From Gracilariopsis chorda (lineage: Eukaryota; Rhodophyta; Florideophyceae; Gracilariales; Gracilariaceae), in NCBI GenBank assembly GCA_003194525.1, contig NBIV01000192.1, forward strand, positions 105,324 through 169,323: 64,000 nucleotides of DNA. Direction: 5' to 3'. Position numbers and translations under genes: made by a program. The notes beneath the pieces were generated by a model. It did no database searches. It was not told where the DNA came from and saw only the letters and a list, made by a program, of their open reading frames with translations. Positions 22,910 through 64,000 of this stretch are shown piece by piece (the first letter of the stretch is position 1; every line of letters starts with the position of its first letter).

Positions 22910-22998
22910 GGTGAACCAGGTTCACCTCAAACCATTAGTCTACGTCTCTGGTCACCCGCTGGGACAACAGTTGCGCATTCTCCTGTAAGAGCCCGCGC

Positions 22999-29377: not shown

Positions 29378-29974
29378 AGAAGTCAATCGAGCCGAGGGAT
29401 GGACACTGGCCCGTTTCAGGGGTTCGTCGAGGCAGCACTGGAAATATCTGAGGAAGAATTACGAATAACTACCGTACAGATCTATGCCGATGACGGGGAG
29501 CAGAAGTTAAAAAATGCCACTCCCCAGATAACAAATGTGGTAAAGACCACGAACCCAGTAGGTTCAATGAACGGTACAACATCCAACCAAATCGAAGGAA
29601 ACTAGGATGGAGACGAATCTAAAGTGGTGCTGCACAAGTTGGATTTGGGTAGCATTACCAAGATGTTTATTGAACACACTACTCACAAGCTCGCCGATCA
29701 AGTACCAGTCTTGGTTTTTCAATTCCTTGAGCAGAAATATCTAGACATTAACCGAATGGTGCACGAATACCTGCAGGAAAATCGATGGGAGGCCTTGCAG
29801 AGCCCCCCAACCGTCTCGCTAATGACAGTAATCAATCAAGGTAAGGCACAGGTTTTCTCGGTACTAATGGTTGTTAAGCCATCTCTTCCTCTACACCAAA
29901 CTGGGGAGAAGCGTCCCAACGCATTTAAAAAACGAGTAGACCTTCCGATAGACAAGAAACCGGGGTATACATAA
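29378..29974 (+). pseudogene. gag: Relic C gag, N-terminal part
   Basis: Two frames (to 29605, and 29624-29974) give an acidic start (PFQGFVEAALEISEEELRI) and then ITKMFIEHTTHKLADQVPVL, FQFLEQKYLDINRMVHEYL. This parallels the helical region of E1 gag that holds TELEIRVPVAVEEYLADRIP. It ends with a basic tail and a stop at 29972. Confidence 0.55.
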
Positions 29975-30269
29975 CTTCCAAAACCAACTGGTAGAACAAA
30001 ACAAGGCCACGACGGCGAACACCCTGGTACAGTTGGTGTGTTAAGCTTGGAAGATGAGAGGCGACAGAGAACAAAAGAAAAGAAAACACAAATAGGGAGA
30101 AGAGAGAGAGACTTGGGTAGTACTTCAATTTTTGGACTCCAGCACCGCTATGGAGTTGTCATAAGATGAAGAGCAGCGTAAAGATAGGAAGCAGAGGAAG
30201 AAATAAAACCGTTCGAACGTAAAGAATAGTGATAAATGTGAAATCAAACGGTATAACTCATGCGATGAC

Positions 30270-32750: not shown

Positions 32751-32994
32751 TGTAACAAAGCAGTCGTAGGGTAGATGCTTCGCACGAAATACGACTAAAG
32801 AGTCGGAGACAAGGTCTAACCGCCCCCTCTAAGCTATCAGCCTGGGGCGGGATTTTATTTATAGAAGTTGTTAGATCAAGCTAGGGCTGCGTACCTGGCT
32901 TGATCCAGCATGGAGCTTCCTAGAGAAGCGGCGAGACACGAAGGATGTGGTTGTGGTATGGGGTGAAGTACTATGCTAATGTTGTGTTGTTGCA
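32751..32994 (-). repeat. Element A 3' LTR
   Basis: 244 bp, two mismatches to the copy at 37865-38108. On the minus strand it contains TATAAATAAAATC, which could serve as TATA box and AATAAA signal. The last codons and stop of pol (ending at 32976) lie inside this LTR. Confidence 0.95.
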
Positions 32995-35900
32995 CTCACC
33001 CGCTTCCTAGAGGACGTCCTCCGGGACGTCGTCAGAGACTTCTCGTTTTCGTAGACCAGATCCTGGCAGTGTTTTAGATCTGTCCGAGTATGCCAAAGCG
33101 CGGCATTTGGTGTTTCTCCCACAAACTCTACTAGAAATTGGCGACGAGTCTTGGGACCGCGATGGCGGAGAATAGCTTTGACTTCCTGTTCGATGCCTCC
33201 TTTCGCGTCCACGACCACATTGACATAGGCTGCAGTATCATCCGGGGTATAGCGGCGTATTCTGTCGACATTGAATACGTTATGCGCCTTCTTCATATCG
33301 GGAGGAAGTTCCAGACGGTACGCTACGGGGCCGATCTTCTCGAGGATCTGGAGAGGGCCGACAAATTTAGGCCTCCATTTCTGCGGCAGATCCGTGCGCC
33401 TTTCCATAGAGAGGCCAGCAAACTGTAAAAGAACTAAGTCTCCGGGCGACAAAGACACGGGGGATCTTTGGAGGTCCGCGTAGAACCTCTGGCGTTCCTG
33501 AGCGCAAAGGAGGTTGTCGCGTGTTGCGGGGCGGAACGCTTCACGCTGTGCGGCGTAGTCGGTAGCTTTCTGGGAAAGAGAGTTGTGGGATATCTCGCGT
33601 GCTGCGTGTGAGGGTGGTACGCGTCCAAGATCGATCTCGAAGGGCGAGAACTGCGTGGAGTGATGTTTGGCGGCGTTGTATTCGTACTCAAACACGCTGA
33701 GAAGTGTATCCCAGTTATGCGGAGACGATTGGATTGTGGAGCGGAGCATAGATGAGACGATGCGGATGAGGTTCTCTGTCTGGCCGTCGGTCTGAGGGTG
33801 TCCGGTCGTGGCGATGTTGAGTTTGACGTTGTAGATGCGCTGTAGTTCTTGCCAGAAGGTGGAGGTGAACTTCCCATCGCGGTCAGAGATGATAGTCTGT
33901 GGAACCCCGTGTCTCGCAAAGACCAAATCCGTGAAGACCTGAGCAACTTCCACCGCGGTGGCCGTCTTAGATGCCGGAACGAAGATGCCTCGTTTGGAGA
34001 GCTTGTCCACGATGACGATGATCATGTCCTTCCCGTTGACGGAGCGAGGTAGTTCTGATAGAAAATCGACCGCTATAACCTCCCAGCACTCTTTGGGGAT
34101 CGGGAGCGGTTGAAGGGGGGCTGCTGGGATGCGATTGGAGTGTTTGTTTGTCTGGCATTGATGACAAGCAGCCAGGAACCCTACAATGTCTCGGTACATG
34201 TTGGGCCAGTAGACGTAGCGGTGTGCGGCGGAAAACGTCTTGTCGGTACCGAGGTGGCCCAAGCCGTGAAAATGAAACGCGACATCTCGTCGCAGACGGC
34301 GAAACTTGGGGATATATAGCCGGGAGGATTGAAATCCAATCCAACGAAGCAAGGAGTTGTCGAAGGAAAACAGAGCGCGTTGGCGTTGTATCCTGGGGTG
34401 GGAGGCATCTTGTGGGTGTTGTAGGGCGGCGATCATCTCTTTGGCCCACGGATCCTGCTCATATGCACCTCGAATGCGCTTGAGGAAGGGTTGTACACTG
34501 ATCATCAATCGGGCAAGGGTTCCCGCAAGGTGGTCTGGGCGGCGGCTCAAGGCATCCGGGACCGTGTTCGAAGGGCCAGAGACGTGTTGTACTTCAAAGG
34601 AGTGTTCTTGAAGTAAATCTAGCCACCGGCATTGCCTGCCGGAGAGAGTGGCCTTGGACTGGAGATACTGCAATGGGCGGTGGTCCGTGCGGAATATGAA
34701 ACGTCTTCCCCTGAGGTAGTGGATCCAATTACGCAAGGTGATAATGAACCCGAGTAGCTCCTGATCCCCGGTGTCCCAGTGTGACTCTGCTGGAGATAGG
34801 CGATGGGATAGGTACGCAACTGGGTGTTCATCTTGTTCCAGAGTGGCGTAGACGGCGTGTTGTGATGCATCTGTGGACACAACGAACGCCTTGTCGGCGG
34901 CAGGTAGTGCGAGGACCAGAGCGGCAGTGAGGGCTTGTTTGATAGCACGGAACGCTTCGGCTTGTGCCGCTGTCCAGTTGAACGTCTCGCAGCGTAATAA
35001 GTCCGTGATTGGGCGCATGATGTCCGCGTAGGCCTTTAAGAAGCGGCGATAGTAGTTGGCTAGTCCGACGAATTGTTGGACTTCTTTGGTTGAGGTTGGG
35101 GTGGGCCAGTTCCTTACCGAATCAACTAGGCGGCTTTGGGTTTGAATACCAGCAGAGAAGACCCTGTGGCCCAAAAAGTCGACTTCGGCTACTCCGAAAT
35201 GGGACTTGGTAGGGTGAATGTACAGTTTTTCCCTACGCATGATGGTGAATAGCTCCCGCAAATGAGCTTGGTGCTCCTCCATGTTGCGGCTGTATACCAA
35301 GATGTCGTTCAAGTAAAGAATGAGGGATTGCCCATTGAGAACGCGAAGCAGGGATGCGAGGAGTCGGGAGAAGGCAGCCGGCGCGTTTGTTAAGCCAAAA
35401 CAAAGAACGGTCCATTCGAATGAACCATAACGTGCTCTTATTGCGGTTTTGTGGCAATCCTTGTCGCGGATGCGCATCTGATGGTATGCACCGACGAGGT
35501 CAATCTGCGAAAAAACGGTTGCGCCTGCGAGTTGATCGAAAGCCTCTTCGATGAGTGGCAGCGGGGTGGCATCTGGAATGGTAATGCGGTTGAGAGCCCT
35601 GTAGTCGCAGACCAGACGAAGCTCGCCGTTCTTTTTCTTGACGAAGAAAACTGGGGCGCCGTATTGTGAAGTCGAGGGGCGAAGATAGCCTCTGTCTAGG
35701 AGTTCGTGGAGGGTACGCCTTAGCTCTTGAAGCTCCTCTGCCGAAAGACGGATGACCGGTCGCACTGGTGGGGGAATATTGGACTTGAGGGGAATAGCGA
35801 AGTCCATCGCGCGTGTTGGGGGTAGTTCATGTGGAAGTTCGGATCGGAAGATATCGGCGAATTCCTCCACTAGTGGAAGGATGTTAGGATGTGTGGATCC

Positions 35901-36377
35901 TGTCAGTACTTCCGGGCGGAGCTTGATGGCGAAAAGCTCACAGCCTTTGCATTTGTGCGTGAGACAGCGAGCGGCACGCTTCCAAGAGATCAGTTTGAAG
36001 GTAAGTCCCGGTGGACGCCTGGATCGTGGTCGCTGTCGGGTGTGAATCCGCCGTTGTGTCCCTTCAGGGCCCCTTAGCAGTAAATCCCCAGTACTCCAGC
36101 AGATCTGTGGTGCGCATGCGCGCAGCCACTGGCGGCCAACGATGATGTAAGGCCGGGCGTCCATATCGTCTGGCATGTCAATTACGAAAGCCGACAAAAG
36201 GGGGTCCGAAGTGCCCAGCCGCAGAGGGGCCTGCACGGAACCTTGAACGGGGATGCGTTGTCCATGTCCCAGCTCAACATATGCGTCGGTCAATGGTGTA
36301 ACCGAGAGGCCACACGCGGCGGCAGTCACGGGCGACACAAATGCGTGTGACGCGCCCGGATCTATATTTGCCACCAC
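32976..36377 (-). CDS. pol: Element A Pol polyprotein: protease, RT, RNase H, integrase, chromodomain-like end
   Basis: A 1,133-codon frame (open from about 36424). Domains: protease NIDPGASHAFVS near residue 6 (usual D-S/T-G is D-P-G, codon 36357-36359); RT from about residue 200 with YGAPVFFVKKKNGELR, VCDYRALN, GAYHQM, LCFGLTNAPAAFSRL and the catalytic box YLNDILVYS (usual YLDD, codon 35307-35309 AAC); RNase H with VSTDASQHAVYATL and RTDHRPLQYL; integrase with HGLGHLG and CHQCQ zinc ligands, VDFLSELP, SDRDGKF and HPQTDGQTEN, so its D,D,E triad is complete; GPLQILEKIGPVAYRL; and a chromodomain-like end QFLVEFVGETPNAALWH. The frame is intact, yet the RT and protease changes should abolish activity. 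Confidence 0.95.
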   Translation of the reverse strand: MVANIDPGASHAFVSPVTAAACGLSVTPLTDAYVELGHGQRIPVQGSVQAPLRLGTSDPLLSAFVIDMPDDMDARPYIIVGRQWLRACAPQICWSTGDLLLRGPEGTQRRIHTRQRPRSRRPPGLTFKLISWKRAARCLTHKCKGCELFAIKLRPEVLTGSTHPNILPLVEEFADIFRSELPHELPPTRAMDFAIPLKSNIPPPVRPVIRLSAEELQELRRTLHELLDRGYLRPSTSQYGAPVFFVKKKNGELRLVCDYRALNRITIPDATPLPLIEEAFDQLAGATVFSQIDLVGAYHQMRIRDKDCHKTAIRARYGSFEWTVLCFGLTNAPAAFSRLLASLLRVLNGQSLILYLNDILVYSRNMEEHQAHLRELFTIMRREKLYIHPTKSHFGVAEVDFLGHRVFSAGIQTQSRLVDSVRNWPTPTSTKEVQQFVGLANYYRRFLKAYADIMRPITDLLRCETFNWTAAQAEAFRAIKQALTAALVLALPAADKAFVVSTDASQHAVYATLEQDEHPVAYLSHRLSPAESHWDTGDQELLGFIITLRNWIHYLRGRRFIFRTDHRPLQYLQSKATLSGRQCRWLDLLQEHSFEVQHVSGPSNTVPDALSRRPDHLAGTLARLMISVQPFLKRIRGAYEQDPWAKEMIAALQHPQDASHPRIQRQRALFSFDNSLLRWIGFQSSRLYIPKFRRLRRDVAFHFHGLGHLGTDKTFSAAHRYVYWPNMYRDIVGFLAACHQCQTNKHSNRIPAAPLQPLPIPKECWEVIAVDFLSELPRSVNGKDMIIVIVDKLSKRGIFVPASKTATAVEVAQVFTDLVFARHGVPQTIISDRDGKFTSTFWQELQRIYNVKLNIATTGHPQTDGQTENLIRIVSSMLRSTIQSSPHNWDTLLSVFEYEYNAAKHHSTQFSPFEIDLGRVPPSHAAREISHNSLSQKATDYAAQREAFRPATRDNLLCAQERQRFYADLQRSPVSLSPGDLVLLQFAGLSMERRTDLPQKWRPKFVGPLQILEKIGPVAYRLELPPDMKKAHNVFNVDRIRRYTPDDTAAYVNVVVDAKGGIEQEVKAILRHRGPKTRRQFLVEFVGETPNAALWHTRTDLKHCQDLVYENEKSLTTSRRTSSRKRVSATTQH

Positions 36378-39403: not shown

Positions 39404-41152
39404 ATTTGTGCCAAGTACTCCGAGCTCACAGCCGAGCCACTCGAGAAACCCATGACACTCGATACCGCACTGAAGTCCGACAAATCGCTGCCACCAGTGA
39501 CTGCGTCCCGAAAGGTAAACCTGGATCTGACCATCGTGCTACCGCAGACAGGATCCCCTGTGCGCATCAGAGACGTACAGTTCCTGATCGCGGACACGGA
39601 AATGCTTGAGGTACTCCTAGGCAGGCCGCTACTGAAGGCGATGGGATTCGATTTCAATGAACACCTACATCGCGTGGCATCGCTCATAGATGGGAAAACA
39701 GAAGAGGAACTAGAAGGAGGACCTTGTAGACTATCTGCAGCGACATATCAGGGTCTAAGCTATACGGACATGGAAGACGACCCCATAGACCCGCCGGAGT
39801 GCCTGCAAGCCAGATTCGGCGTGGATTCCGTGGAATCGATCACCGAAGCAATCGAGAGGGCTGTCGAGGAGGCCAGCAAGAACGGTCTATCGGATGGAGG
39901 CATGAGGAAACTCCGGGGAATGTTGGAAAAACATCGAAGCTGTTTTCGGATCAAGCTAGGACCGGACCCACCAGCTGATGTACGTTCTCTTGCGATCAAG
40001 CTCGCCCCAAATGCCAAACCCTACCGTTCCCCGCATCGCCGATACTCGCCAGCGCCAAGAGTTTTTATCAAGCACACGATTCGCGAGCTCGAGAAGATCG
40101 GCGCAGTATCCAAGAACGATCAGGCACGGTGGGCATGCCCGGCCCTGGCAGTTCCAAAACCGGGTACGGACAAGCTTCGATTCACGATCGACCTGCAGGG
40201 AACCAATGCCGAGACTTTACCATTGCAGTCCGCGATGCCCCACCTGGAATCTATGCTACAGGACTGTGGAGAAAGCAAATGTTTCGCGAATATTGATTTC
40301 ACGCGCGGGTATTGGCAAATACCCTTGGACAAGCTTTCGCAAGAAGTCACGTCTATTCAAACACCAGCAGCAATATATTCACTGACGAGGACGTTGCAGG
40401 GGGGCACTGATTCTGGCAACCATTTCCAATCCGTAACCAGAGAAAAGTTCGAGGGCAAGGTACAGCGTATGCTGCAATGGTTAGACGATTTCCTCATCCA
40501 CGCCAAGGACGAAAACGAGCTGATGTCCGATATCGCCGCATTTCTCGAGGTGTGTACAGAAGTCGAGTTCAAAGTGAACCCCAAGAATTCTTGCTTCTTC
40601 ACCACCGAGGTGAAATTTTGCGAAAGGATAATTTCATCCGAAGAAGTCCAGTTCGACCCTCGAAATTTCGAGGCTGTACTGGCGATGAAACTCCCGAGGA
40701 TGGGAGACGAGTTGCAGCAGTTGCTGTGCGCAACCAACTGGATGAGAACATTCATTCCTCAGTACTCCCGACTCGTAGAAACTCTTCACCAACTGCTGGA
40801 AGAAGCATGCCAGAAGGCCGGGAAGAGGACGAAGAAAGCTCTCCAGAAGGTAAAGCTTGAATGGAACGAAACCCACTCCGCGACATGCGAGCACCTCAAA
40901 GAGCAGCTAGCAGAAGCAACGAAACTGGCGCTTCCAAAGGAAGGGTACCGCCTTTGTCTGTTCAAGGACGCTTCAGGTACCCATTGGGCAGCTTTTCTTA
41001 CGCAATCTCCCGAGAATGAGCAGAAGAAGCTGATCGAAGAACAAACTCACGAACCGCTGTGCTTTCTATCCGGAGCCTTTAAAGGTTCATCGGAGCGCTG
41101 GAGTGTCCCCAAGAAGGAGGGATTCGCGATCATCGAATCCATGTGCAGGTAG
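39404..41152 (+). pseudogene. pol: Element B pol: protease end, RT, RNase H start
   Basis: Same frame as gag, open for about 580 codons. After the protease LLGRPLLKAMGFDF block comes RT: IRELEKIGAVSKND, LAVPKPGTDKLRFTIDLQGTN, NIDFTRGYWQIPL, IYSLTRTLQGGTDSGNHFQ (usually VPQG) and the catalytic box QWLDDFLIHA, which is intact. Then KLPRMGDELQQLLCATNWMR (connection) and the RNase H start CLFKDASGTHWAAFLTQ and PLCFLSGAFKGSSERWS. It ends in TAG at 41150-41152, where the frame otherwise continues. Confidence 0.92.
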
Positions 41153-42304
41153 GATTATCTAACAGTCGGACGACTAGTCTCCATCTACACCGACCACGCA
41201 AATCTTGTCTACATTTACGATCCATGCGGTCGCAATCCCAGTATCGCCCGACATACAGCCAACAAACTTACACGCTGGGCTCTAAAGCTGAATGGGTTTC
41301 GATTCGTCATCGAACACGTACCTGGAGAACGCAACGTCTGGGCTGACATGTTGACGAGATGGGCGGTGCAACTCAGGAAGAATGTACAATCCGCCAATAT
41401 CGGACGCGTGAGTGCACTCATGTCCGCGCCGATCAATCCTGGAATAGACAATGCGTACGATTGGCCTTCGCTGCATGATATCATCCAATCGCAAGATGCA
41501 ACCGCACCACGCCCCAAAGCGAGCCCACAAGAAGGAAGGAGCCATCCGCATTCCCACAGGGCAAATGTGGATAACCGACGGTGACCACAAGTTGCAACTA
41601 AGAATCTTGATCGCGGCACATACCGGTAAAGGCGGACACCGAGCAGCTGACCCAACTTTCCAGACAGTAGCAGCCCTTTTCTGGTGGAAAGACCTCAGGC
41701 GAAGGATCCCAGACCACTCGGACACACCCTGCATGCCGACAAGCCAAACGAGCTTCTGCATTTCGATTAATGCTACATGCATAAAGGCGATAAGAGCAAG
41801 CTCTACACTCTGGTGGTCAAAGACGACCTCTCAGGCTATGTTTGGCTCAAGAGCACGGAGGAAGCCGACTCCGACACCACAGTGGACGCCCTGGTGGATT
41901 GGCTCGCATGCTTTGGAGTAGACCAGTCGTGGATATCTGATCAGGGAAGCCACTTTAAGAACCAGCTCGTCAAATCCCTGGCACAGAAGCTGAAGGCCGA
42001 CCACCATTTCACATTGCCGTACTGTCCTTGGAGCAACGGATCCGTCAAAGGCGTCTGCCTCGAACTACTCAGAGCCTGTCGGGCATTGCTGTCAGAATTT
42101 CAGCTGCCACAGTCGGCGTGGCCGAGCGTTTTGCCGCTAGTACAGTCCGCGCTGAACAGTGCACCGACAAGAAGGCTTAACGGAAAGTGCCCGTTGACCG
42201 TATTTACTGGACTCCCGCAAGACTCACCTCTCGCCACCATACTGAGAAGTCAGAAGGAAGTACCCACAGTGGAAGCATGGACAGCATGCGTGCTAGAGCC
42301 TTAG
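41153..42304 (+). pseudogene. pol: Element B pol: RNase H end and integrase
   Basis: Continues in frame with LTVGRLVSIYTDHANLVYI and GERNVWADMLTRW (RNase H end). A frameshift near 41.52 kb leads to IRIPTGQMWITD and HTGKGGHRAADPTF; another returns to the first frame at LLHFD, followed by TAA. The integrase core follows: VVKDDLSGYVWL, WISDQGSHFKNQL and CPWSNGSVKGVCLELL. In the last block the catalytic Glu (usually V-E) is Lys, codon 42047-42049. A TAG ends the frame at 42304. Confidence 0.88.
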
Positions 42305-42891
42305 TGGAAGTCGATAGGGTGCACGAGGCATTGTACAAGATGCATAGAAACTGCACAGACCAAGCAAGAAGACAGCGAAAGTCTTCGGTCGATGCCCACA
42401 ACCGGAGAACCGGGGTAAGAGCTGTTAACTTCACAGAAGGCGACTATGTGCTTAAGGCTATGCTACAGAGGAACATACGCGCAAAGACCAGTTTGAAATG
42501 GAACAGACCCTTCCGAGTCACAGCGTGTCGAGGACAATTCATTTTTGAAGTAGGAAACCTACTGGACGGAAAGAAGGAGCTCGTGCACGGTAGGGGGTTG
42601 AAATTTTTCTGCAACAAGGACTTTGAAATATCAGAAGACATCAAGGATCACCTCGCGTATCAGCAAAATGAACTCTTGGTAATCGAGTACTTTGAGGATA
42701 TTTGCCGCCGGAGTAATCAAGTAGAACTGCTCGTGAAATGGACTGGTTTTTCTCTCAAAGAATCGGACTGGGTCAACATCGATTCACTACGTACGGACGT
42801 TCCCGAACTTTTACAGGAGTACCTGGAGCAAACCAAGAAGTCAGGGACAAGAAAACAACGCAACCTCATTTCAGCCATCGGCACACACTAA
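42284..42891 (+). pseudogene. pol: Element B integrase C-terminus and chromodomain
   Basis: A shifted frame (from about 42.29 kb) reads LVEVDRVHEALYKMHRNCTD, FTEGDYVLKAML, KWNRPFRVTACRGQFIFEV, then the chromodomain VIEYFEDICRRSNQVELLVK with WTGFSLKESDW and LRTDVPELLQEYLEQ. Cage residues are well kept. The stop at 42889 lies about 30 bp before the right LTR, beyond a short purine-rich run (ATGGGGGA) that could be the polypurine tract. Confidence 0.88.
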
Positions 42892-52450: not shown

Positions 52451-53087
52451 AGAGGTTTACTGGTCAAAACATATCCCCTGAGAGTAAGTTCTCTTGGGCG
52501 TTCCGTAGGAAAGCGTGCAACTCGTTCTGGCTTGTGTAGAACTTTTCAGGCCACTGCAAATCACAATTAACCGGGAGTCTCCAACCCAGAGTCAGAGGTC
52601 TGGCCTTTAGGGCCTGCGGAGATAGCATCTCCTGCCAGTGTTCCGGCCAAGAAGGTTCGCTTGCTCGGTAGGAGAGCGGTGAGGATAGTAAAGTATGACT
52701 TTTCTCTCTCACTGCCATTCTCTCAGTGATGGATGGGGATCGAGTTACAGATGTAAGGCGGGTCCCTCACTCACAGGGGAACGCCAACTACTACGTTTCG
52801 CGATTATACGTTCGTGACTTGATGCATGCCTCTCAAACGGCCTTCTTGCTTAGCTCAGGGCGACCCATAGAGGGATAAGGTGCAGCTTAAGCACGAAAGC
52901 GCTGGGACGATGGTCGAAAATGAACCTTCGTCAACGCCTAACTGGTATGATGTTCCATGATGGTGACGACATACAGAAGCACCTACACGAAGTGGAAACC
53001 ATCTGCTTAGAGTTTTTATGCCTGCGAGATCGACTACCTTATCCCGGACGTAGCCCTTTCCTACTTTGAGCACTACTTGGCTCTTTA
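52451..53087. other. No recognisable gene
   Basis: Between the gag start of G and the copia relic. It should hold the G leader or LTR, but I could not recognise either. Short frames only. Confidence 0.3.
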
Positions 53088-53790
53088 ATGGCGATTACTC
53101 TCTTATCCGACGTCAGTAACATGGAATACGACCAAGTTTTGTCCCTTGTACGTTCTGAAACGGACAGGCAAAAGCATGGAAAACCCGCCACAACCTCTGA
53201 GGCACAAGAAACGAGTAAAGGGGGACAAAATCCATACCTCACAGCCCAGAAATCTTACATCACACCAAAAGGAACTGTATTCAAATAAACTAATGTTAGA
53301 TCTTGGAACTGAGATAAAGTATAACACATTTGCGCTGAATGCAGAGTAGAAGAACGATTGAACATGCCAACAACCAACATCTGACGCGAAAGAAATCGTT
53401 TGCCCAGGGGAAAACAAGAACAGGAAGCAAAGACCATGGGACTCAAACAGGCATGACCAAAACCCAAACCAAAACAATAGCCAACGACATAACACGGAAC
53501 AGGACCCACGCGGTTCCGTGGCAATTGCTAAGGCTTTGTCTTCCTGCCTTGATAGCAAAGTCAAAACATGGCTCGACGGTGGTGCGACACGTAGTTTTGT
53601 CAATGATAAATCACTATTCTGGGCCTATCACCAGACTACAGCCCACACAGTTAGCAAATGCGACCGCGACTCTACAATAGAAAGATACGGAACAATAATG
53701 CTCCCACTGGGAAATGGATTGGGACTTCCTGCAAAACACACATCCTCTGTGGTGCAATGCCCCAAAGGGGAAAAACACCGAAAGACGTCC
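53088..53790 (+). pseudogene. Ty1/copia fragment: gag end and protease
   Basis: NMEYDQVLSLVRSETDRQK looks like the end of a copia gag. After several stops a frame from 53518 reads AIAKALSSCLDSKVKTWLDG with GATRSFVNDKSLFWAY and YGTIMLPLGNGLG, the copia protease pattern W-x-D-x-G-A-x-x-x-x with the usual D-S-G replaced by D-G-G. The sequence is cut off at about 53.79 kb, where the composition changes sharply to GC-rich hairpin-bearing DNA of element H. Confidence 0.6.
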
Positions 53791-54608
53791 GGGATCTTCC
53801 TCTCACGAGGTGAACCCAGTTGGGCAGAGCCCTCCCAGAGGTGTCACGGCAAAGCCGGTTTGTAAGACCAGGGACACCTGTCGCGACTCGCAGGGAGGTG
53901 AAGGCGAAGAATCGGTATCCGCGTGAGCGGGGTGTGATCCTCAGTAGAGGTATGTTTCCACGTAAGTGGGGGTGTGTGAGCGGATGTGCACACGAGGGCC
54001 GCGGATAGCGGGAGGTGCTACCCTAAAAAGGGGAAAGAGGAAGGACGAAGTGGGTCGCGAGAGCGACGAGTAGATACGGCAATGCCGGTGGACAGGACTC
54101 CCTATACAGGGCGAAACACCAATATGATTGGAACAATTAGTACTCCCAATGATGGGTCTCCTTTAGATGTGCAAGGGGGTGAACTTCCGTACACTACGGT
54201 GCTTCCCTCCAAGGAGGAGTTGAGAACACGCGGAGGCGGTAAAGCTCAGAGCCAATTCCCCAGGTTGGGGTCCCTTGTTGGGGAAGGTTTACTGGTGCGA
54301 CGGCAGTGCGCCGCCGCACTAAGTACCAGCGTCCCAGAAATGGGTGTGAAAATAATAAATAAAATTAACTAAAATACTCCACATTCCGTGGCAACATCCA
54401 CTACTGTGGCCAACCGCCAATTGACCCAAAACCGTGTCCCACGTGTCCATACCCACCATTGTGGGCGTAGTTCATATACACACTACACAACCGATAATAT
54501 CGGGAAAGCGTTCAAGTACCCAGAATCCCTCCCTGAGGGCGTTGCAATTCATATCCCCCCCCTTAAGACGGGAAAACGACTGCGGACGCGGAGGATTCCC
54601 AGACGAAA
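53791..54608. other. Left terminal region of H, possibly its LTR
   Basis: GC-rich with short inverted repeats (for example CCGTA-CAC-TACGG near 54187). No long frame. AATAATAAATAAAATTAAC at about 54350-54370 holds an AATAAA. If H is a minus-strand element, its 3' LTR should lie here; the partner copy is outside the window. Confidence 0.4.
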
Positions 54609-56378
54609 ATGGGTGATAAAAGCGCGTGCTTTGTCTCCGGTTCTCCGGTAAATCCCTCTGCACCAGAGTCATCAAGCACACAAACGACAACAACAGCCAC
54701 CCTCCAAAAGGGAAAAATGAACGACGACAACAATATCAACAACCACAGCCAACCGCCGAGACTTCTCGGGCGATACACCACCGGTTTCCGGTCAGTTCCC
54801 CTGCCTCAGGGCGATCGAAATCCGGTACAACCGGGGAATATGGCTGCGGCAGCCGACCATCCCTTCGCACTACCACCTTCGGTGGTGTCCTCCGGAACCA
54901 CTCCGGTGTCCAACTGGCCAACTTACAACACCCTGGTGGGGCTCAACCCGATGAATCGGAATCACGCGTCGCGCCTGCGCCTTGCCCCGTGGTTTCACCC
55001 GGTCGCCGTCCTCAATGAGGGATTGGTCACCGCTTATGCGGATGGTTCAGACACCCTTCCGGGGGATCTGCCCAACATCGTGGGATTGGCGTCACCGGAT
55101 TGCGATTCCGCGTCACCACCTCCGAAGAAACTCGGGCGAGACCGTCACTGCGGCACAGACCGCGCTGACGCGCATGGCGTATCAACGGCAGAGCCGGGCT
55201 CCATTCGATGTACCGGTCCCACCGGAGTTTGGCTTCGACGTTAGCTACTTCCGCACTCGCGGGGAGATTGGGTACGGCGAGAACCTGTTCCGCCTCGAGA
55301 CCCTCGCTTGGAGGAATTTCCCCGCAGCGCGGCAAGAGGCCCTTTGCTGGGAGCGACCGATTATTCGGGCGGAGTTCAGGTACCTTCCCCGGCAATACCG
55401 GTCCAACTTTCTCCAAAACTTCATCCGCTACGAGCGGCGTTGGCGATCCCGATTCGGGTATTTTATCCCGTATCAGAACGTGGAGATAGAGCGGATTGCG
55501 CCGCCTAACCGACTAGGTCGGTATGTAGCACTCCCCGAGTGGTGGCGCTTCCATGAAGCCTGCCGGGGGTGCTACATAGAACTCCCGCCGGTACTTACGT
55601 ACCTCGGTTCGCTGCTCATGCAGGATCCCCGGTCGGGGTTGTGGTCCGTAGTGGTTACGGAGTGGGCGGCCCGCAGTGCGGCTTATATCCTCAACGAGGC
55701 GTACGACCAGTATCGTCTCTGGTTCCTTCAACCGCGTGTGCGGGCAGCGATCCGAAACCTGGATCTTCGCATCCCCCTTGGGGCCAGGCCAACAATGAAG
55801 AGGTCCTCCAATTACTTGGGTACATCGACAGCGTTGGCTGGAGTGAGGTCCCGCTGGAGCAAAGCAGTCGTCCGGATGGCGGTAGCGGTAACACCGGTGG
55901 TCCGGGACTCGGTAGAAACACCGCCCTTGCGGGGGATTTTATCTACTTCGACCCCTGGGAGTTCCGGGAAATTTCCTCCGAGGAGGCGCGCGAGCTTCGC
56001 GATACGCCCCGGCATGTGCCGGAAGACCACCCGGTGGGGTACGTCGATTCCGACGACTACTACCGCGCATACGGCGGGGATTACCCAATGGTCGATAACG
56101 AACCGGAAGAACCCGGGGAGATGGACGTAGAGGAAACCGGCGCTAGCGCGGAAGCTTTCCCAGAGGGGGCATCTCCGGCCGAGCCGGCTGCTGACCCTTC
56201 GGCGGCAAGTGCCGGACCTTCTATCCCCAGCGGGGTGACGGCGAATGAAAACGAAATCATCGCACGTTTCCTCCGGGGTGCCGGTCTTAGCGCTGCCGAG
56301 GTATCGGGGATGTCACCACCATGGCGGTCGCGTTGGCCTACCGCCTTGCTGGGGGTTACGCCCCGGACGATGGGGTGA
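54609..56378 (+). pseudogene. Unrecognised opposite-strand frame of element H (about 590 residues, two frameshifts)
   Basis: Three overlapping open stretches join head to tail. The first (ATG 54609) is Thr/Ser/Asn-rich, then GRYTTGFRSVPLPQGDRN and LGLNPMNRNHASRLRLAPWF-like sequence. The second (from about 55115) is rich in aromatic residues and Arg: PEFGFDVSYFRTRGEIGYGE, YRSNFLQNFIRYERRWRSRF, LPEWWRFHEACRGCYIEL. The third (from about 55790) has EEVLQLLGYIDSVGW, GDFIYFDPWEFREISSEEAR and an acidic Ala/Pro-rich end. An AATAAA follows 90 bp after the stop. I recognise no family. Position and orientation recall the antisense frames beyond pol in plant Tat-type elements such as Grande, but I see no sequence likeness. 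Frame joins are inferred from sustained composition. Confidence 0.5.
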
Positions 56379-56948
56379 GTGAAACCTCTGGTCCAGTTTC
56401 CTGGTTCTTCTTTCCCTGGCTATGCCAGTTAGTGTAGTGTAGTATTGTGGGGAGCTAGCTGCTCCCTGAATAAACTTTCCCGTTTAGAACGGTGCTTCTC
56501 GGTTGAGTTCCCCGTCTTCGACGGACTTTGCCTTGTTATCCTTTCCTTTCGCTCTCCGCTCGCGCAGCAACGTTACCCAACTTGGGCATTAACCAGCGTG
56601 GCTGGGGCTGCGGTTCCCGTTTGACGGTGGTATCGCAGGACCTGCGACCGCGGGAGGTGTTCAATTGGCTCCCACGTATCCCCACTGGGGTCGTACCCGT
56701 ACCAGCGGACGCGGTATTGTAGAATACCATCCTGGTCCCAGGTGTGTCCGACAAGTCGGTCTACTACGAACTCTCGTTCGTAGACCTGCCGGCCGTGCCG
56801 GGTGGTGGTTGTACTTCCCTGCGGGGCTGCCCGCTGTGCGGTATAATGTCCCTTAGCAGGGTGTTCGGCGATAACTCCGAAGTTGCCGTGCGCTGTCCTA
56901 GTGGCCGCTGCTCATGCGGGAAAATATCCCTCAAGAGGGTGTGTGGTG
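56379..56948. other. Spacer between opposed frames, hairpin-rich
   Basis: No long frame. Contains the AATAAA at 56469-56474 and some of the clearest hairpins, including an 8-bp stem with loop TCTC at 56764-56783. The pol tail on the minus strand ends at 56949, so this is the point where two converging reading frames meet. Confidence 0.5.
56469..56474 (+). terminator. AATAAA polyadenylation signal after the plus-strand frame
   Basis: AATAAA in CCCTGAATAAACTTTCC, about 90 bp after the stop of the plus-strand frame and preceded by a TGTAGTGTAGTATTGTGG tract. Correct placement for a transcript end, but unverified. Confidence 0.35.
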
Positions 56949-58330
56949 TCAAGGTTTTCCCCGGAAAGTCATTCCCCATTGGGGTGTCGTTGTTCCCGTC
57001 TTCACGGTAGGCCGGGCGAACCGCCAGTCGGCGGGGGACTTGGGCTCCGCCTTCACGGTTGAGCTCACGAACCGCGAGTTTGCGGGAAGATGACCGCTCC
57101 TGCGGGATCGGCATTTCCACAATCCCCTGGGGGTCCCGTGCGACACGGTGATTGGGTGGCAAACCGCCTCCCTGCCAGGCGCACGAGCGCTCTGCACCAT
57201 ACGTTCCGGCGACGCCGTGGTGTCCCCGGCTACTGACGGGTTGCCTGGGGCTAACTCCGCTACACGGGTATTTTGGTCAAAATTCCCCTTTGGGGGGTTC
57301 TGGGCAGGTGCCGATGACACCCTTTTCAGGGGAATTGCCGCTGAGCGCAGTGCACCATCTCCGTGAGGAGGAGCAGCGTCCGGTACGACCGGTTTCGAGC
57401 GTGCGATGGTGCGCGTTATTCCCGAGTTCCTCGGTTCTTCGCCGCAGCGATGCGGGGGTTGGCGCAAATTGTTCCCCGTAGCGGGGGCTTTGATTCCGTC
57501 AACGACGGGAGGCGTTTCCGGTGCTTGCGAGCCAGGGCTTAAAGCTTCGCCTGCAGCTTGGCCGCCTTTTTCCCCAAGAGGGGTGTGGGTATTCCCCTGT
57601 GAGGCCGGCGTATCTGGGCGCCCCTTCTCCGCAGGGCGCGGGTCTGATCGACCTGATTGAACCGCTTCCGCGGGGACTTCCGCCAACGGCGGCTTCGAGG
57701 CATCGGGCGATTGCCTTTCCGCTGCTGCGGTATTGGAGTGAGGCTTCTCGTTTTCCCGTGACAAACGGTGTATTTGCCGCTTTTGCGGGGCCTGCGCGTC
57801 TGGTTCCTGTTGCACAGCACTGCCCGGGAACGGGGGATTAGTGTCGCGTGACATACTCCGTGCTCCACGGTCAGTGTTCCGTATGTTTCGGTGTGTTTCC
57901 CGTTGCGACGGTGATATCGTTCCTCGAAAACGAGTGTTCTCCTCCCCCTCCTTAGACGGAGCGGCGGGATAAGGGATAACATTCCCCGCCTGGCGGGTAT
58001 AGATGCGCGCCAGTGGGGCAGAAGTGGTAGGGGCGGGCGCTGAGGGGCCCGAATTACCCGGCTGAGCCGGTGAGTCCGACAGAGTCGGTAGGTCTGAGAG
58101 TCCCCGGCTGGGGTGTGGTAGTACCGTAGGTCTAGTACTCCCGGATTGTTCCGGTGTAGCGGAGTCCGTAGAAACGGGGTTGCCTGGATCCAGGACTACC
58201 TCTGACGACGGAGGAGGGGCAAGGACAACACGATCACGGGAAATCCGTTCGTGCGTGTCCCCCATCTCTACCACGACAGTGTCGGTGTTAACAGAGATCA
58301 CCTTGAAGGGTCCATCCGCCACAGGCGAGA
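56949..58330 (-). pseudogene. pol: Element H integrase end and long Pro-rich tail
   Basis: Starts with the barrel motif ADGPFKVISVNTDTVVVEMG and HERISRDRVVLAPPPSS, the normal integrase end. Then about 420 further codons are open with high Pro, Ser, Arg and Gly, few hydrophobic residues and no chromodomain. The frame is the same as the integrase upstream, with one TGA at 58416-58418 between them. The tail is where other gypsy elements in this window carry a chromodomain. Most of its hairpins lie here. Confidence 0.75.
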
Positions 58331-60101
58331 GTTTGTGACGCTTCTCCCGTTCCGGGTTGTAGTATTCCTTCCTGATGAAGACGTAGTTATTTGCCCGAAT
58401 CGGGGACGGTTTTCCTCACACGCGAGCGTCAAAATCCCGCTTGTAAGCGGCTTGGGCCCGTGCCATAGACTTCCGCGCCGCGGGGACCAGCTTGGAAAGC
58501 CATTGCTTCCATTGCTGCCGGTAGATACCCACAGATGGGAAATTGTCCAAGGTAGCTTGGGGTTCCAGCGCCACAGGCGGGGGTGTTCTAGATAGAACTA
58601 ACTCGAATGGCGAAACTCCGGTAGTCCGGTGTACCTGCGTATTGTACGCGTAGGTTACCGCATCAGCGTAGAGATCCCAATTCGTTGGGTGGTCAGCGAC
58701 GTAGGAACGTAACGCCGCGAGTAACGTCCGGTTAAACCGTTCAACTTGCCCATTACACTAGGGGTGGTAGGTAGTCGTGAACAAGTTCTTGACATCCAGG
58801 ATGCGACAAACATCCTGGAAGAACTTGCTCACGAACTGCTTCCCGTTATCGGAGAGCACCTCCACAGGGGGACCGTAGACAAAAATCCAGTGCGTCCTCA
58901 GAGCCTGGGCCACCGTGAGAGCGGTTATCCTCCGAAGAGGGACAGTTCGTACCAGCTTAGAAAAGCGGTCGGTGATGACAAGTAGAAACTTGTTTTCACG
59001 TTTTGTGGTGAGTAGTGGTCCGAGAAGATCAATTGCGATAAACTCGAGTGGCGCCCTTGCGGGGAATAGTTTCATCTTCTTCGCATTTTTGCGGAGCTTG
59101 ACGCGATTCTTCGCGCATTCGCTACAAAACCGCACGGTTGCGTAGCAATCCACTGCCATGGCGGGCCAATAGAAATCCCTTCGCAGGGTTAGGTAGAGTT
59201 TCCTCCCACCTGGGTGACCTCCAATGGGGGCGTAGTGTGATAGATGTAACATCCGCGATTGCAGGGAATGTGGTACCACAATCTGTGGGAGGGCTTCGAC
59301 CTTTCTTACGAGGTAGCCTTTGTCGTTTACCCCGAAAGGGAGATCTTCACCACCGTTGATACGGGCACGAATTCTCGAACAGAATGGATCGCCGAATTGT
59401 TCTCGGATCATTTCTTCCGGTGATACCGGTACAAAGTTTCCCGGTAACGGGTTCTCAGATTTATCTCGCGATGCGAGTAGTTCGTCAAAATCAGCATCCT
59501 CGTCCCAGGTTTCTGGCCTAGCCTCGACGGCATATTCCGGATCATCCGGGTCTATAGCCATGAAGCATGGGACTTCATCATCCTCCGTTGGGAGTGCTTC
59601 CCCACTTGTGGGTAACCGCGATAAAGCGTCGGCCTGGGTGTTCTGCGCACCCTTTTTATAAATGACTTGAAAGTCATATTCCGCGAGGCGGAGTCTCCAG
59701 CGCATGAGGCGTCCCGACGGGTCGGAGATATTCATCAACCACCTCAATGAGGAATGATCCGTGTACACGGTGAAGTGAATTCCCATAAGGTAGGGGCGCA
59801 GAGTGGTCATCGCCCATACGACGGCGAGGCACTCTTTCTCCGATACGGAGTAGTTCCGCTAATGAACATTGAGCGAACGTGACCAATAACCAATTGGCTG
59901 TCGTTCCCACTCGGGGGTGGTTTGAAAAAGAGCACACCCGACTTGGTAGTCGCTCGAGTCAGTATCTACGGAGTATGGCAACCCAAGTTTTGGGAGATGT
60001 AGGATTGGTGCTGATGTGACAGCCTCCTTTAAGGAGTTAAAAGCTTCCGATTGCTCGGGCGTAAATGTTCCCAGTTTTGGGGGGTTCCCCTTTCGCAACA
60101 A
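58331..60101 (-). pseudogene. pol: Element H RNase H and integrase
   Basis: One frame with three stops (59859-59861, 58758-58760, 58416-58418). RNase H: YSVDTDSSDYQVGCALFQ, a segment with YSVSEKECLAVVWAM, FTVYTDHSSLRWLM and TQADALSRL. Integrase: MLHLSHYAPIGGHPGGRKLY and FCSECAKNRV (zinc ligands H,H,C,C), FIAIDLLGPLLTTK (Asp), VLSDNGKQFVSKFFQ (Asp), then TTTYHP followed by TAG and CNGQVERFNRTLLAAL (Glu). The first catalytic stop separates the first two catalytic residues from the third; a single C-to-T change from CAG explains it. Confidence 0.9.
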
Positions 60102-61437
60102 CGCGTTCAGGGCGCTGCAGTATCCGAAAATTTCGGGATAAACCGTCGATAGACGTTGACCAGCCCCAGAAAGGAGCGCAGTTCCGTTTGAGTACGGGGT
60201 TCTTTCGCCTCAACGAGGATTTGACTCGAGCTTTCTCGATCGCTAACCGTCCAGGACGGATAATGTGACCCAGATACTTCACAGTATCTGTGAAAAACTC
60301 GCATTTCCTCAACTTGAGGTTAATTCCCGCATCGCGGAGTACGGTGAGCACGTCTCGGACGTGAGTGAGATGGTCGTCCAACGAGTTGGAGAAGATGATG
60401 ATATCATCAAGGTAGACCAGACAACTCCGCCACTTAAAGCGGTTGAGTAGAATATCTACTGCACGCTGAAAGGTGGCGGGGGCGTTGGTTAACCCAAATG
60501 GCATCCGCTTGAAGCGGTACGTTCCTGCATGGCAGGTGAATGCGGTTTTTGTCGCGATCCTCCTGTCTGACAGGTACTTGCCAATATCCCCAATTGGCAT
60601 CAAGGGCCGTGAACACGGTGGCGTCTCCAAGGGAGTCAATGCACTCGTCCATACGAGGGATGGGTACGTGTCCCTAACAGTCACGGCATTGAGCCGGCGG
60701 TAGTCGACACAGAACCTCCAGGTTCCGTCGGCCTTTAAAGCCAGTACAACTGGGGATGCCCAGGGTGATTGAGCGGGCTCAATCACACCTGCGCGGAGCA
60801 TCTTGTCCACCTGGGACTGCTCCTCTTCCCGAGCTTTCGGACCTGCCCTGTAAGGGGGTTGTGCAACCGGTCGCGCACCGGGGATTAAATCGATCCGGTG
60901 TTCCGTTGCATCAATCTCGCCAAGCGAGCCATCCCACATTGTGGTGAATTCCCGTAACATAGTACGGAGTTTGTCGCGGTGCGACTCTGGCACGTGGCTG
61001 ACGTCCAGCACTTCAAGTGCTTTTTCCGCATCAATCCAGTCATTGTTCGATGGAGCATTGTCCTGTGGAACAGGTGTGGTTCGCAATTCCGAGTTACTCG
61101 GTATGTTCGGCGCTGAAGTAGCGGTTTCCTCCCCCTCCTTAGACTTGACGTCTTCGGACGGCGGGGCGAACTCCTCAGAAGAGGTGGTAACTCCGAGTAC
61201 ATCGGCGGCTGTCATCTTTGTTGGCAGCATTCCCATAGGATGGGGGGTTACACTCCCAATTACTTGGTGTTTGACCAGATACTGGGGGTGTTTGCCAAGG
61301 TTGGCAACCAATATCCGGAAAGGAACATCCGGGGAAATGGAGACAATTCCATTAGCCAGCGCCAGCTGGGATTTCTCGTACAACGAGGCGAGGGGTTGTA
61401 TAACCCGAAGACCGTGTTGACGGGAATTTACCTGCAC
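60037..61437 (-). pseudogene. pol: Element H reverse transcriptase
   Basis: Open for 466 codons on paper, but two compensating single-base shifts garble the middle: near 60657 one base is missing (TYP then SLVW instead of the usual IPRMDE) and near 60552 one A is extra (after EDRDK). The correct middle is visible in the alternative frame (DECIDSLGDATVFTALDANW). Other blocks: SPWASPVVLALKADGTWRFC, VDYRRLNAVTVRD, TAFTCHAGTYRFKRMPFG, LTNAPATFQRAVDIL and the intact catalytic box LVYLDDIIIFS. The left end runs into the connection domain. Confidence 0.9.
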
Positions 61438-61597
61438 CCAGACTTGGGACTCAGCCGGTATAGAAACCGAGGCAGCGACGCGGAGCTTGGTGGACTCGCG
61501 GGACGCGGGCGGTGGTTCCTGCGCAGCAGGGAGCGGAACTTGTTTCCGAGAGGACCGCTTTAGCGTGCGGCGAACAATCGTAACCGACGATCCGTCG

Positions 61598-61900
61598 TCA
61601 AGTTCTACACGCCTGAGCGGGGCCTGATTGCGTCGACAAATCTGTCGCAGTAATCACATCCAGTATGACTGGTGCTGCAATGAACGGCAAACGATGAAGT
61701 CCAACTTCACCACGGAGGTACCAAGTCTCACGACGAGGTCCACTGGGCCATCGTTTGTAACGGGTTGTTATTCGCATCCGAAATGTCGGGGACCGTGTCA
61801 GAGCGGATACGCGACCGCACAAGCGGGGGTAACAATGATTCCACAACAAAGTTGAGGCCTGCACCTGTATCCAGGATGGTGAGAAACCTCACCATAAACT
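61598..61900 (-). pseudogene. pol: Element H protease
   Basis: The complement of about 61865-61898 reads VRFLTILDTGAGLNFV, an intact D-T-G site matching the E1 protease. The following strands are spread over changing frames (SDTVPDISDANNNPL, then WPSGPRRETWYL). At least two frameshifts. Confidence 0.75.
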
Positions 61901-62299
61901 GGGGTCAAGGCCAAGGTCGGCATAGACCTTATAATTGCGCTTGCCAAGACCAAGACTCTACCGGAATCCGGGATTTTTACTCCGTAATCCACGGGCGACG
62001 CAACACACCAGGTGGCAGAGTCGCGTCAGCGGTGTCTTTCCTCGAGAGGACTTTCACCGGGGAGCGAGCCGAGGACGCCTCGGGCGCCAACAGCCTCGTT
62101 CTTGAGGACGCCTCTCCCAAAGGGGAGACTCCCTCAGTTAGTTTTCCGCCTTCGGCGGTTGGGTTGGTTTCCTCGACAATGAGTGCTTCATCCCGTTGAC
62201 GGTGGTTTCTATCCGCATAAGCGGGGGTTGCAACGGATGGTTGCGTGATCTCCCGAATCGGGTGTATGAAGCTTGCCGCCACGCGGGGTCTGTGGTAGG

Positions 62300-64000
62300 G
62301 CGTGGGAAAAGTCCGTTTTAGCACGGAGGTAGGAAGCCGTCGGCACGGAACGTTTCTCCTCTGGAGTGAGCGCCTCATAATTTGGCAACCACCTTGGCCA
62401 TATCCTTCAGTGAACAAATACACTGAGGAGAGGTATGGCCATGGGCATAGCACAGGTGGAAAATGAGAGCCAGCACCGCGACACGCGGATTATTATTCCG
62501 AGTATCGGAAGAAGCGAACCGCAGGGCGGTGTCAGTCCATCCAGGCCGTTGATAACGGGATTGACCGTTTGAAACGGGAGTCGTTGGGGTTGAACCCGAC
62601 TGTTAACCACCGTATAGAACGGGATCTTCTCTTCCCGTATCATGGGTCATCTCCGTCGTTGACGGTAACTCACTGGTGGGTATCGACACACCATCCCCCT
62701 GCGCTAAATGCACGGTATCAAATCCCTGTCCAGGGTTCCCATCCGCGGTGAGCGGGAGAGAGGAAGCTTCGCTTTCCAGCAACAACGCCTTGGCGGATTT
62801 AGACCGATTGTTCGGAGTTCTTGCACGAAGTGCATCCCCTTCCGCTCGAGCGTGTTGGACCAGCTCGAGGTAGGTGATCCTTCGCTTGTCTCCCGATAAC
62901 GGGTAACTAAACTCCGGATTGCCGGGTCAAGACCATCAATGAACATGGTACTGCGCTCCCCAGCGGGGTATACGTTACCACATCTGTGGAAAGCCTTGTT
63001 AAGGCGCACCGAGTAATCGGTCTCGGTCTCTCCAGCACGCTGGCGTGTATCTCGCAAAGCGAGGATAGCCTGCTGAATAGCGGTGTTTGTGGCGTAGGAG
63101 CGCAGAAGATACTGCACAGCCTCCGGCCAGCAAGTAACTCCTCCCTCGGAGGCGCGAGAAGATCCTCTGACAGAGGTGTATTGGTCCTCCGCCACTCCCC
63201 GTAAGAAATACGGTAAAGCCAAATAGGCTTGTCCCTCATTCATACCGAGGATATCGGCCTCCGCTACAAAGCGGGATAGGAAATCCAGTACTAGGACTGG
63301 GTCCTCTCCAGTAAAATACTGGTTGCGGAGCGAGAGCTGCATTCGCTTAATGCATTCTCGCACCTTTCCCGTACCACGGGGCGTACGTCCAAGTGACGAA
63401 TCTTCAAGCCGGTAGTACCGGTATGATAAAAGCTTCCGTAATCCGGGTTTGTCGGTTTCAATTCCCGGAGACCGGGGTGTCTTCTCCCCTTCTGGCGGGT
63501 TCGGACCACACCTTCAGTGGCCGATGACCGCTTCGAGCGGGAGGAGTAGCCTCGCTTCTCGTCCTCCGAGTCGGAGTCCGAGGAGCTCGAGCTAACCGAA
63601 ATGGTTTCGGGGTGAGTCCGACGATGTCGAAGAATCGGAGTCCGAATATTTTCGGTGGTGTTTCCGTCGGTGACGGCGTTTCTTCTTCCCAGCAAGCTGG
63701 TCGTTGTGCGATGCCTCGTTTACCGGATCACCCGGGGATGGTTTGTCCATGAGGAAGAACTGCTCCAGCGTCTCCAGGCGGGCACCAATCCGATCAAATC
63801 GGGCTTCAACTCCTTCGATGAAGGCGGGCGGGTTGTCCCAAACTCTCCAACACGGAGTTGACGTCAGACCGTAAAATACGGAGTTCCTCGGCGACCTCCT
63901 TTACGGGGGTTGCCAAGACCACCTCTTGGAGGGATTTTAGTTCCCCTACAAGGGTGTCATGGGCGGTCCACAGAGCGCGGACCTGGGATTCCAGGGAAGT
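62300..64000 (-). pseudogene. gag: Element H gag (5' end outside the window)
   Basis: From the right edge: a coiled-coil-like start (ESQVRALWTAHDTLVGELKS, VAEELRILRSDVNSVLE), a frame change near 63835, EARFDRIGARLETLEQFF, a basic and Ser/Asp-rich tract, then IKRMQLSLRNQYFTGEDPVL and LDFLSRFVAEADILGM (gag signature), YLLRSYATNTAIQQAILALR, YSVRLNKAFHRCGNVY and IDGLDPAIRSLVTRYRET. It follows the same plan as E1 gag but is diverged. At least three frame changes. Confidence 0.85.

Follow-up and report, generated by a model that had tools for sequence, protein, structure and literature searches.

Short perfect hairpins under selection in a clade of Ty3/gypsy retrotransposons, probably of red algae, with the Gag nucleocapsid as a candidate reader

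Why is one end of a stretch of red algal DNA packed with tiny perfect hairpins whose letters are unrelated to each other, and what keeps them there? The stretch (the window) comprises 64,000 nt of Gracilariopsis chorda contig NBIV01000192.1, and the hairpins fill a Ty3/gypsy long terminal repeat (LTR) retrotransposon whose sense strand is the minus strand and which extends beyond the contig end at window position 64000. Hairpins are denoted here by stem base pairs and loop nucleotides (5/3, 4/4 and so on), and the family of the window element is called H. Positions 53745 to 64000 hold 91 5/3 hairpins where 100 dinucleotide shuffles give 11.5 (sd 3.2), and those starting with CC number 58 against 1.6 in the same shuffles. 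In the remaining window (1-53744) the corresponding counts are 68 against 54.7 (sd 5.7) and 2 against 3.8 (10 shuffles). Similarly, all three inner pairs are Watson-Crick at 58 of the 179 CC-N9-GG sites of the element, compared with 2 of 174 in window positions 1-53000. This confirms that the hairpin observation is real, and it is wider than first noted: the 5/3, 4/4 and 4/3 shapes are each enriched, the hairpin shape being a size class with a span of 9-14 nt, and an apparent 6/1 class can be read as 5/3 hairpins with complementary loop ends. When starts less than 10 nt apart are merged, five CC..GG shapes together give 140 distinct hairpins in 10.3 kb, at a mean spacing of 73 nt. Their starts modulo 3 number 50/48/42, in agreement with the earlier claim that all three codon phases are occupied.

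The array runs through every part of the element and stops at its edge. With overlapping forms counted, the density of CC..GG hairpins per kb is 22.3 in the LTR, 13.0 in a region carrying an antisense open reading frame (ORF) and 16.8 in sense coding sequence; the LTR alone holds 5 CC 5/3 and 11 CC 4/4 hairpins against 0.1 and 0.5 in shuffles. Copies of the element were fetched from ten other contigs, nine of them with flanks, and CC..GG 5/3 hairpins were counted per 500 bp. Outside the element the counts drop to zero, the exceptions being one isolated hairpin each in copies L015 and L027 and two in the window, and no CC..GG hairpin of four shapes was found in window positions 53000-53744. The preliminary description of this locus had begun the element at 54180, which must be corrected to the LTR edge at 53745. 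The hairpins that it cited at 63368, 63528, 63790, 63812, 63869 and 60307-60319 are all present, and its figure of 13 hairpins in 63361-64000 is right when 5-bp stems with any loop of 2-4 nt are counted; a 3-nt loop is found in 10 of the 13, and a CC start in 8 of those 10. In 62 maximal 5/3 hairpins the loop positions are near-random and no shared loop or bulge motif of the MS2 type was found; what these hairpins have in common is stem geometry and the CC/GG ends.

The G+C content of the element (0.57, compared with 0.49 in the rest of the window) might invite the explanation that base composition, codon use or dispersed repeats create the hairpins as an artefact. However, neither dinucleotide nor synonymous-codon shuffles, the check proposed at the outset, reproduce the hairpin density. 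The 5,625-nt Pol frame of another copy contains 45 5/3 hairpins against 7.4 in synonymous shuffles (maximum 14 of 150 shuffles), 29 of them of the CC type against 1.8 (maximum 6), and a stricter shuffle that keeps the dinucleotides at codon junctions raises these expectations only to 10.1 (maximum 17) and 3.8 (maximum 11). A sample of 6 kb was taken at each of ten other gypsy loci in the genome. Among these, the Pol sequences of L034 and L030 (5/3 hairpins) and of L028 (4/4) lie above every shuffle of both kinds, and control families stay within the range of synonymous shuffles (L033, 9 against 4.4, maximum 9; L035, 3 against 4.0). Moreover, L032 and L033 have an equal G+C content (0.57) without a comparable excess, and the arms of the hairpins are conserved while the loops are not. 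Composition, codon use and repeats are thus ruled out as the cause by the shuffles, and the chance that the hairpins are such an artefact is negligible.

The conservation of the arms was measured between copies of the element, among them L017 and L026, which are 91% and 85% identical to the window element. When the 48 CC 5/3 hairpins of the window are compared with L017, 37 match exactly, 9 are altered in the loop alone, 1 is broken and 1 carries an indel, and the change rates are 0.006 in arms, 0.106 in loops and 0.072 at other sites. In the opposite direction, 37 of the 55 CC 5/3 hairpins of L017 are identical in the window, 9 show loop changes, 8 are broken and 1 carries an indel, with rates of 0.033, 0.142 and 0.069, respectively. 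For the same class of hairpin, arms change at 0.016 and 0.039 in the two directions with L010 (outside, 0.078 and 0.075), and at 0.052 and 0.064 with L026 (outside, 0.149 and 0.148). Overall the arms are slowed 2- to 12-fold, depending on copy and direction, where the 12-fold value is the strongest of six directions and is biased by the calling of hairpins in the window itself. The effect is not one of base identity, as CC and GG outside hairpins change at 0.060-0.072 when arm C and G change at 0.005 (window hairpins against L017). It extends to third codon positions of Pol, where 12 of 213 arm positions differ from L017 compared with 263 of 1552 outside (p 4e-6) and 54 of 134 differ from L030 compared with 578 of 1097 (p 0.008), and to the LTR, where all 8 comparisons, made with one reference in common, show a lower rate of change in arms than elsewhere. 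As a separate observation, hairpin loops in the Pol frame of copy L019 evolve quickly, codon positions 1 and 2 included (0.146-0.167, compared with 0.045-0.064 outside, against L017).

The distribution of variants among near copies indicates when this constraint operates. Variants common to at least two near copies (about 7 copies per site) occur at 0.0056 in arms, 0.0184 outside and 0.0215 in loops, and singletons, which by inference mostly arose after insertion, at 0.030, 0.040 and 0.053. Arms are therefore hit a third as often as other sites by shared variants and three quarters as often by singletons; variants unique to the window were set aside, since the calling of hairpins in the window biases that class. 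The stronger avoidance of arms by shared variants argues for selection during replication of the element that is weaker or absent after insertion. A mutational cause at the DNA level would affect both classes alike. Selection for structure, one of the causes put forward in the preliminary description, therefore stands: arms are conserved in coding sequence, third codon positions included, and in the LTR, and synonymous shuffles remove the excess. That purifying selection acts on the arms and not on the loops is well supported.

The near-strict Watson-Crick pairing of the arms is also what would be expected if reverse transcriptase (RT) template switching or palindrome correction wrote and maintained the hairpins without selection. 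Template switching, however, would copy a mutation in one arm to its partner, and compensated changes are near zero. Compared with L017, none of the 48 CC 5/3 hairpins of the window has compensated arm changes, and when 5/3 and 4/4 hairpins of any letters are taken together, those perfect in both copies with changed arms number 1 of 186 and, in the reverse direction, 0 of 196; with L026 the corresponding counts are 2 of 75 and 1 of 79. The perfecting of hairpins by template switching, as had been suggested, is thus not supported. Among 18 gained or lost hairpins listed, the 8 with at least 3 internal changes also have at least 7 changes in about 60 flanking positions, and this confinement to divergent patches gives no sign that hairpins are written in one step. 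A host process acting on short palindromes, the other mutational suggestion, is not supported either: the flanks and the remaining window are nearly free of the pattern, and sister gypsy families have little or none of it. The predicted excess of paired substitutions between aligned copies likewise did not appear between near copies (the 1 of 186 above), yet the arms change little there, so drift is not supported either. On the near-absence of compensated changes, the singleton pattern and the restriction of multiple changes to divergent patches, a mutational origin was rejected and is considered very improbable.

The ten further gypsy loci show that the trait is confined to one Ty3/gypsy clade and that the preferred hairpin geometry differs between related families. 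Against shuffles, 4/4 hairpins dominate in L028 (121 against 22.6) and L029 (95 against 24.4), CC 5/3 hairpins are in excess in L030 (15 against 0.6), and L034 combines CC 5/3 (16 against 0.4) with CC 4/4 (32 against 2.0); L037 is weaker (4/4, 48 against 24.6; CC 4/4, 12 against 1.9). CC-N9-GG sites with all inner pairs number 15 of 62 in L030, 16 of 75 in L034, 2 of 47 in L037, 0 of 55 in L028 and 3 of 39 in L029. In L028 the pair adjoining the loop is preferentially G-C (47 of 77). H and L034 both follow the CC rule, and a geometry of its own is thus not seen in every family. Five sister families (L031, L032, L033, L035 and L036) have little or none of the trait, each with 1 fully paired CC-N9-GG site out of 22 to 44; L032 shows mild excesses (4/4, 39 against 25.7; 5/4, 14 against 5.9). 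In the tree of RT sequences, the hairpin families group with Agarophyton sequences P0001 and P0011, and the five hairpin-poor families with P0050. The L026 row of that tree was ignored: the locus also holds another, different element, and fragments of it had been joined into the row, which misplaced it.

Searches of viral and bacterial collections with single-protein queries gave nothing. Alignment queries gave 20 related loci, of which one carries the trait: L044 (JALZUP010000409.1), a gypsy Gag-Pol contig filed in a Robiginitomaculum metagenome-assembled genome and 47% identical to P0001. It has no near match in the plasmid collection and is probably eukaryotic contamination of that assembly. 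Its hairpins are in excess (z 6.1; 5/3, 14 against 2.5) in a different geometry (CC-ended, 1 of 14), and the other 19 loci have z between -1.9 and 2.3. Together the seven hairpin families (H, L028, L029, L030, L034, L037 and L044) show a strong excess of three-pair stacks at spans of 9-14 nt, with z no higher than 2.6 at other spans up to 31; in the control stretch 1-50 kb, z reaches 3.4, at span 9. Between families, individual hairpins are mostly replaced. From H to L030, 19 of 95 are kept, 5 are kept with changed arms and 71 are lost; from H to L034, 11 of 73 are kept, 7 are kept with changed arms and 55 are lost; in two control pairs, 2 of 41 are kept and none with changed arms. Position therefore seems to matter less than density and shape. 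Two fainter signals were seen in the sister families. Single shapes stand out in L032 (5/5) and L033 (6/6). In addition, 3-bp stacks of span 11 are weakly enriched in L031 (z 5.0), L032 (z 4.4) and L035 (z 3.5), which might represent the trait in a fainter or more ancient form.

What might read such hairpins? In all seven hairpin families Gag carries the pattern C-x2-CY-x3-H-x4-C followed by [NH][YF]E-x-L, and among Gag homologues the zinc knuckle is present in 32 of 49. In the sister families the knuckle is altered (L032, L035 and L036) or the pattern is not matched (L033). Beyond the knuckle, the Gag C-terminus (P0121-P0169) continues in a conserved NYExL..VP..SYxxAK-like extension of unknown fold, and no solved structure matches L034 Gag at E 0.1. 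The sequence of the element, coding and non-coding, is under selection to keep one short perfect hairpin in roughly every 70 nt. The comparisons suggest a mechanism in which these hairpins would act as dispersed, multivalent and interchangeable binding sites along the genomic nucleic acid in its single-stranded form, the sense RNA being the likeliest molecule. The putative reader is the element's own Gag nucleocapsid, with its single CCHC knuckle and conserved C-terminal extension, which would condense and package its own transcript via the hairpins, and the geometry would drift among families as Gag and hairpins co-evolve. In Ty3 the nucleocapsid zinc finger is described as critical for packaging of genomic RNA (PMC4974528), and the packaging signals are described as 'not precisely defined', with the untranslated regions and POL needed (PMC11381356). 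That the hairpins are dispersed binding sites for Gag on the genomic nucleic acid is the proposal adopted here, tentatively and as something somewhat short of probable. Its bolder form is held still more loosely: each family may write its whole genome as tiny perfect hairpins of its own size and terminal pair, a shape code that Gag might read independently of the loop so as to distinguish the nucleic acid of its own family from that of the host and of other families, with the two drifting as a lock-and-key pair.

Several observations weigh against a Gag nucleocapsid that reads RNA hairpins. The knuckle pattern is missing from 17 of the 49 Gag matches, the hairpin-poor family L031 also has a CCHC knuckle in Gag, and the correlation between Gag and hairpins amounts to one split in the tree, a single event. 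In yeast, Ty1 transposition is reported not to be significantly affected by internal deletions of up to 5 kb and the cis-sequences of Ty3 are delimited at the ends (PMC4974528), and the packaging sequences of Ty1, Ty3 and human immunodeficiency virus 1 (HIV-1) are placed in a structured 5' end (PMC11381356), so that signals of a dispersed kind would set the present element apart from them. Between families, covariation is weak, with doubly changed Watson-Crick pairs at 20 against 10.0 expected from H to L034 and near expectation in most other family pairs (control pair, 4 against 2.6). Native flanks are of no help to folding (pair probability 0.477, compared with 0.465 in shuffled flanks; p 0.84, 58 hairpins), sense and antisense strands differ little (0.48 and 0.40; p 0.15), and the minimum free energy (MFE) signal is the same on both strands (z -1.04). 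Finally, G-U pairs are tolerated no better than A-C mismatches. Summed over seven families, G-U numbers 256 against 192.6 and A-C 302 against 226.7, both 1.3 times expectation compared with 2.5 to 8.5 for Watson-Crick pairs; the small CC..GG subset alone hints at G-U (8 against 4.4 expected; A-C, 5 against 5.2).

The equal scarcity of G-U and A-C, together with the equal MFE signal on the two strands, favours hairpins that act as DNA. They might do so in the cDNA while it is single-stranded in the course of reverse transcription, where nucleocapsid or integrase could bind them or where they could protect or pause the cDNA, or as cruciforms once the copy has integrated. As G-T is a mismatch in DNA, this would account for the fact that only Watson-Crick pairs count. 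The element nevertheless shows a polarity. In 36 of 62 cases the sense-strand base after a maximal 5/3 hairpin is A, and this downstream A is changed in 0 of 114 (overlapping) comparisons. Downstream A outnumbers upstream T in the LTR (11 to 3), in the antisense-ORF region (11 to 5) and in sense coding sequence (67 to 17), and it is also found in L028 (42 of 77), although not in L029 or L034. This suggests that probably a single strand is read and disfavours a reading symmetric for the two strands, although a reader of cDNA could still be polar. We know of no DNA function for a hairpin of such shape, and a role as DNA is regarded as unlikely, if far from fanciful. The molecule read may be RNA, if its reader is strict about Watson-Crick geometry, or cDNA in single-stranded form.

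The MFE z-score over the element (-1.04; se 0.17, 43 windows of 120 nt), compared with +0.16 in window positions 20001-30000, also reveals the excess folding energy that is characteristic of genome-scale ordered RNA structure (GORS). This would be consistent with RNA structure that is pervasive because it helps the element to evade host defence or decay, without a dedicated reader, as proposed for GORS in RNA viruses. Such a process leaves unexplained why spans are limited to 9-14 nt, why the ends are CC/GG, why geometry differs between related families and why sister families in the same host have little or none of the trait, and it is judged improbable. Recognition of the hairpins by Gag is retained as the working proposal.

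Apart from its hairpins, the element is of an ordinary kind; the hairpin trait is not ordinary. Its features are collected in Table 1. The Pfam domains RVT_1, RT_RNaseH, Integrase_H2C2 and rve place RT, RNase H and integrase in gypsy order, LTRs flank both sides of the fuller copy, as in Ty3/gypsy elements, and a putative chromodomain-like C-terminal segment was seen by eye in translations. The best RT match comes from a red alga, Agarophyton chilense (55% identity), and protein matches to this species and to Gracilariopsis chorda point to a red algal host. A 2-kb query of the genome (91.3 Mb, 1081 contigs) found the window copy and 39 others at 96-98% identity, among the 40 scored of 1426 candidates. 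The window copy is degraded and open-frame copies occur elsewhere in the genome.

Table 1. Parts of the window element and examples of its hairpins (window coordinates)
Feature	Position	Strand	Basis or remark
Ty3/gypsy LTR retrotransposon, 3' part, degraded, chromodomain-like C-terminus	53745..64000	-	Aligned copies, Pfam, hairpin counts; hairpins throughout
3' LTR, ~807 bp, dense in CC..GG hairpins	53745..54551	-	Present at both ends of fuller copy (L012, L013)
LTR hairpin CCCCA-GGT-TGGGG	54258..54270		Example
Antisense ORF, broken in window copy, hairpins included	54609..56378	+	Homologue in Gracilariopsis chorda
Pol C-terminal part with chromodomain-like segment	56573..56911	-	Translation, recognised by eye
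RNase H end, integrase zinc-binding and core domains	58758..59810	-	Pfam
RT-containing Pol part, frame interrupted, hairpins within conserved RT blocks	60037..61653	-	Pfam RVT_1
Hairpin CCTCA-ACT-TGAGG within RT coding sequence	60307..60319		Example
Gag nucleocapsid-like (zinc-knuckle) region, degraded in window copy	62375..62602	-	Translation; CCHC form in other copies
Gag capsid region	62704..63513	-	Translation; by eye, resembles Gag of other families
5/3 hairpin CCCGT-ACC-ACGGG	63368..63380		Example
5/3 hairpin CCGAT-CAA-ATCGG	63790..63802		Example; identical hairpin in another copy (L013 732)

Three further observations concern the element and its surroundings. The antisense ORF between Pol and the 3' LTR is open over 609 aa in another copy (L019:1130-2956). 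A Pfam search with this 609-aa protein gave no match, and three homologues were found, one of them 'hypothetical protein BWQ96_03215' of Gracilariopsis chorda (51% identity); it is an unexplained accessory gene of the retrotransposon. Copies L010, L017 and L025, together with L026, are mosaic, the LTR or one part being about 97-98% identical to the window and other internal parts 85-95%, which suggests recombination between subfamilies. The window also contains other Ty3/gypsy-like ORFs at 32976-36377 (minus strand) and 39452-42891 (plus strand), with RT, RNase H, integrase and one chromodomain, and in window bins the hairpin array is absent from both.

How LTR retrotransposons choose their own RNA is still open, and a single host with several related families of differing geometry and a hairpin-poor sister clade offers a natural experiment. 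The hairpins form a second layer of information over the protein code, with near-strict Watson-Crick geometry and selection strong enough to slow the arms by the factors given above. Searches of open-access papers turned up no account of a retrotransposon with a hairpin array of this kind. Many small GC-rich hairpins are also present in the double-hairpin elements and palindromes of fungal mitochondria, which are dispersed repeats of related sequence in organelle DNA. Unlike these, the stems of the present element are mutually unrelated, confined to one transposon clade and under selection.

Turning to structured genomes, GORS is detected as an excess folding energy of irregular structures, whereas the element repeats one hairpin size class with different letters, in a form that differs between related families. 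The likeness lies in structure that spans the whole genome, as is described for GORS of persistent RNA viruses (PMC3950689, PMC3695492). Yeast Ty3 belongs to the same superfamily, and its single CCHC nucleocapsid packages a genomic RNA that needs the untranslated regions and POL; compared by description, the accounts of Ty3 report individual functional structures and not a stereotyped hairpin array (PMC11381356, PMC4974528). Closest in layout are the dispersed packaging signals described for MS2, hepatitis B virus and picornaviruses, in which many short stem-loops across the genome vary in sequence around a common recognition feature (PMC6281560), and the element likewise carries many stem-loops genome-wide under selection. 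In MS2, however, the common feature is a loop and bulge motif (PMC6281560), whereas here the loops are near-random and stem geometry, in some families with the CC/GG end, is common. Those signals belong to viruses; here the hairpins lie in an LTR retrotransposon and binding by Gag is putative. Neither MS2-type signals nor GORS describes one size class with free letters that changes between related families.

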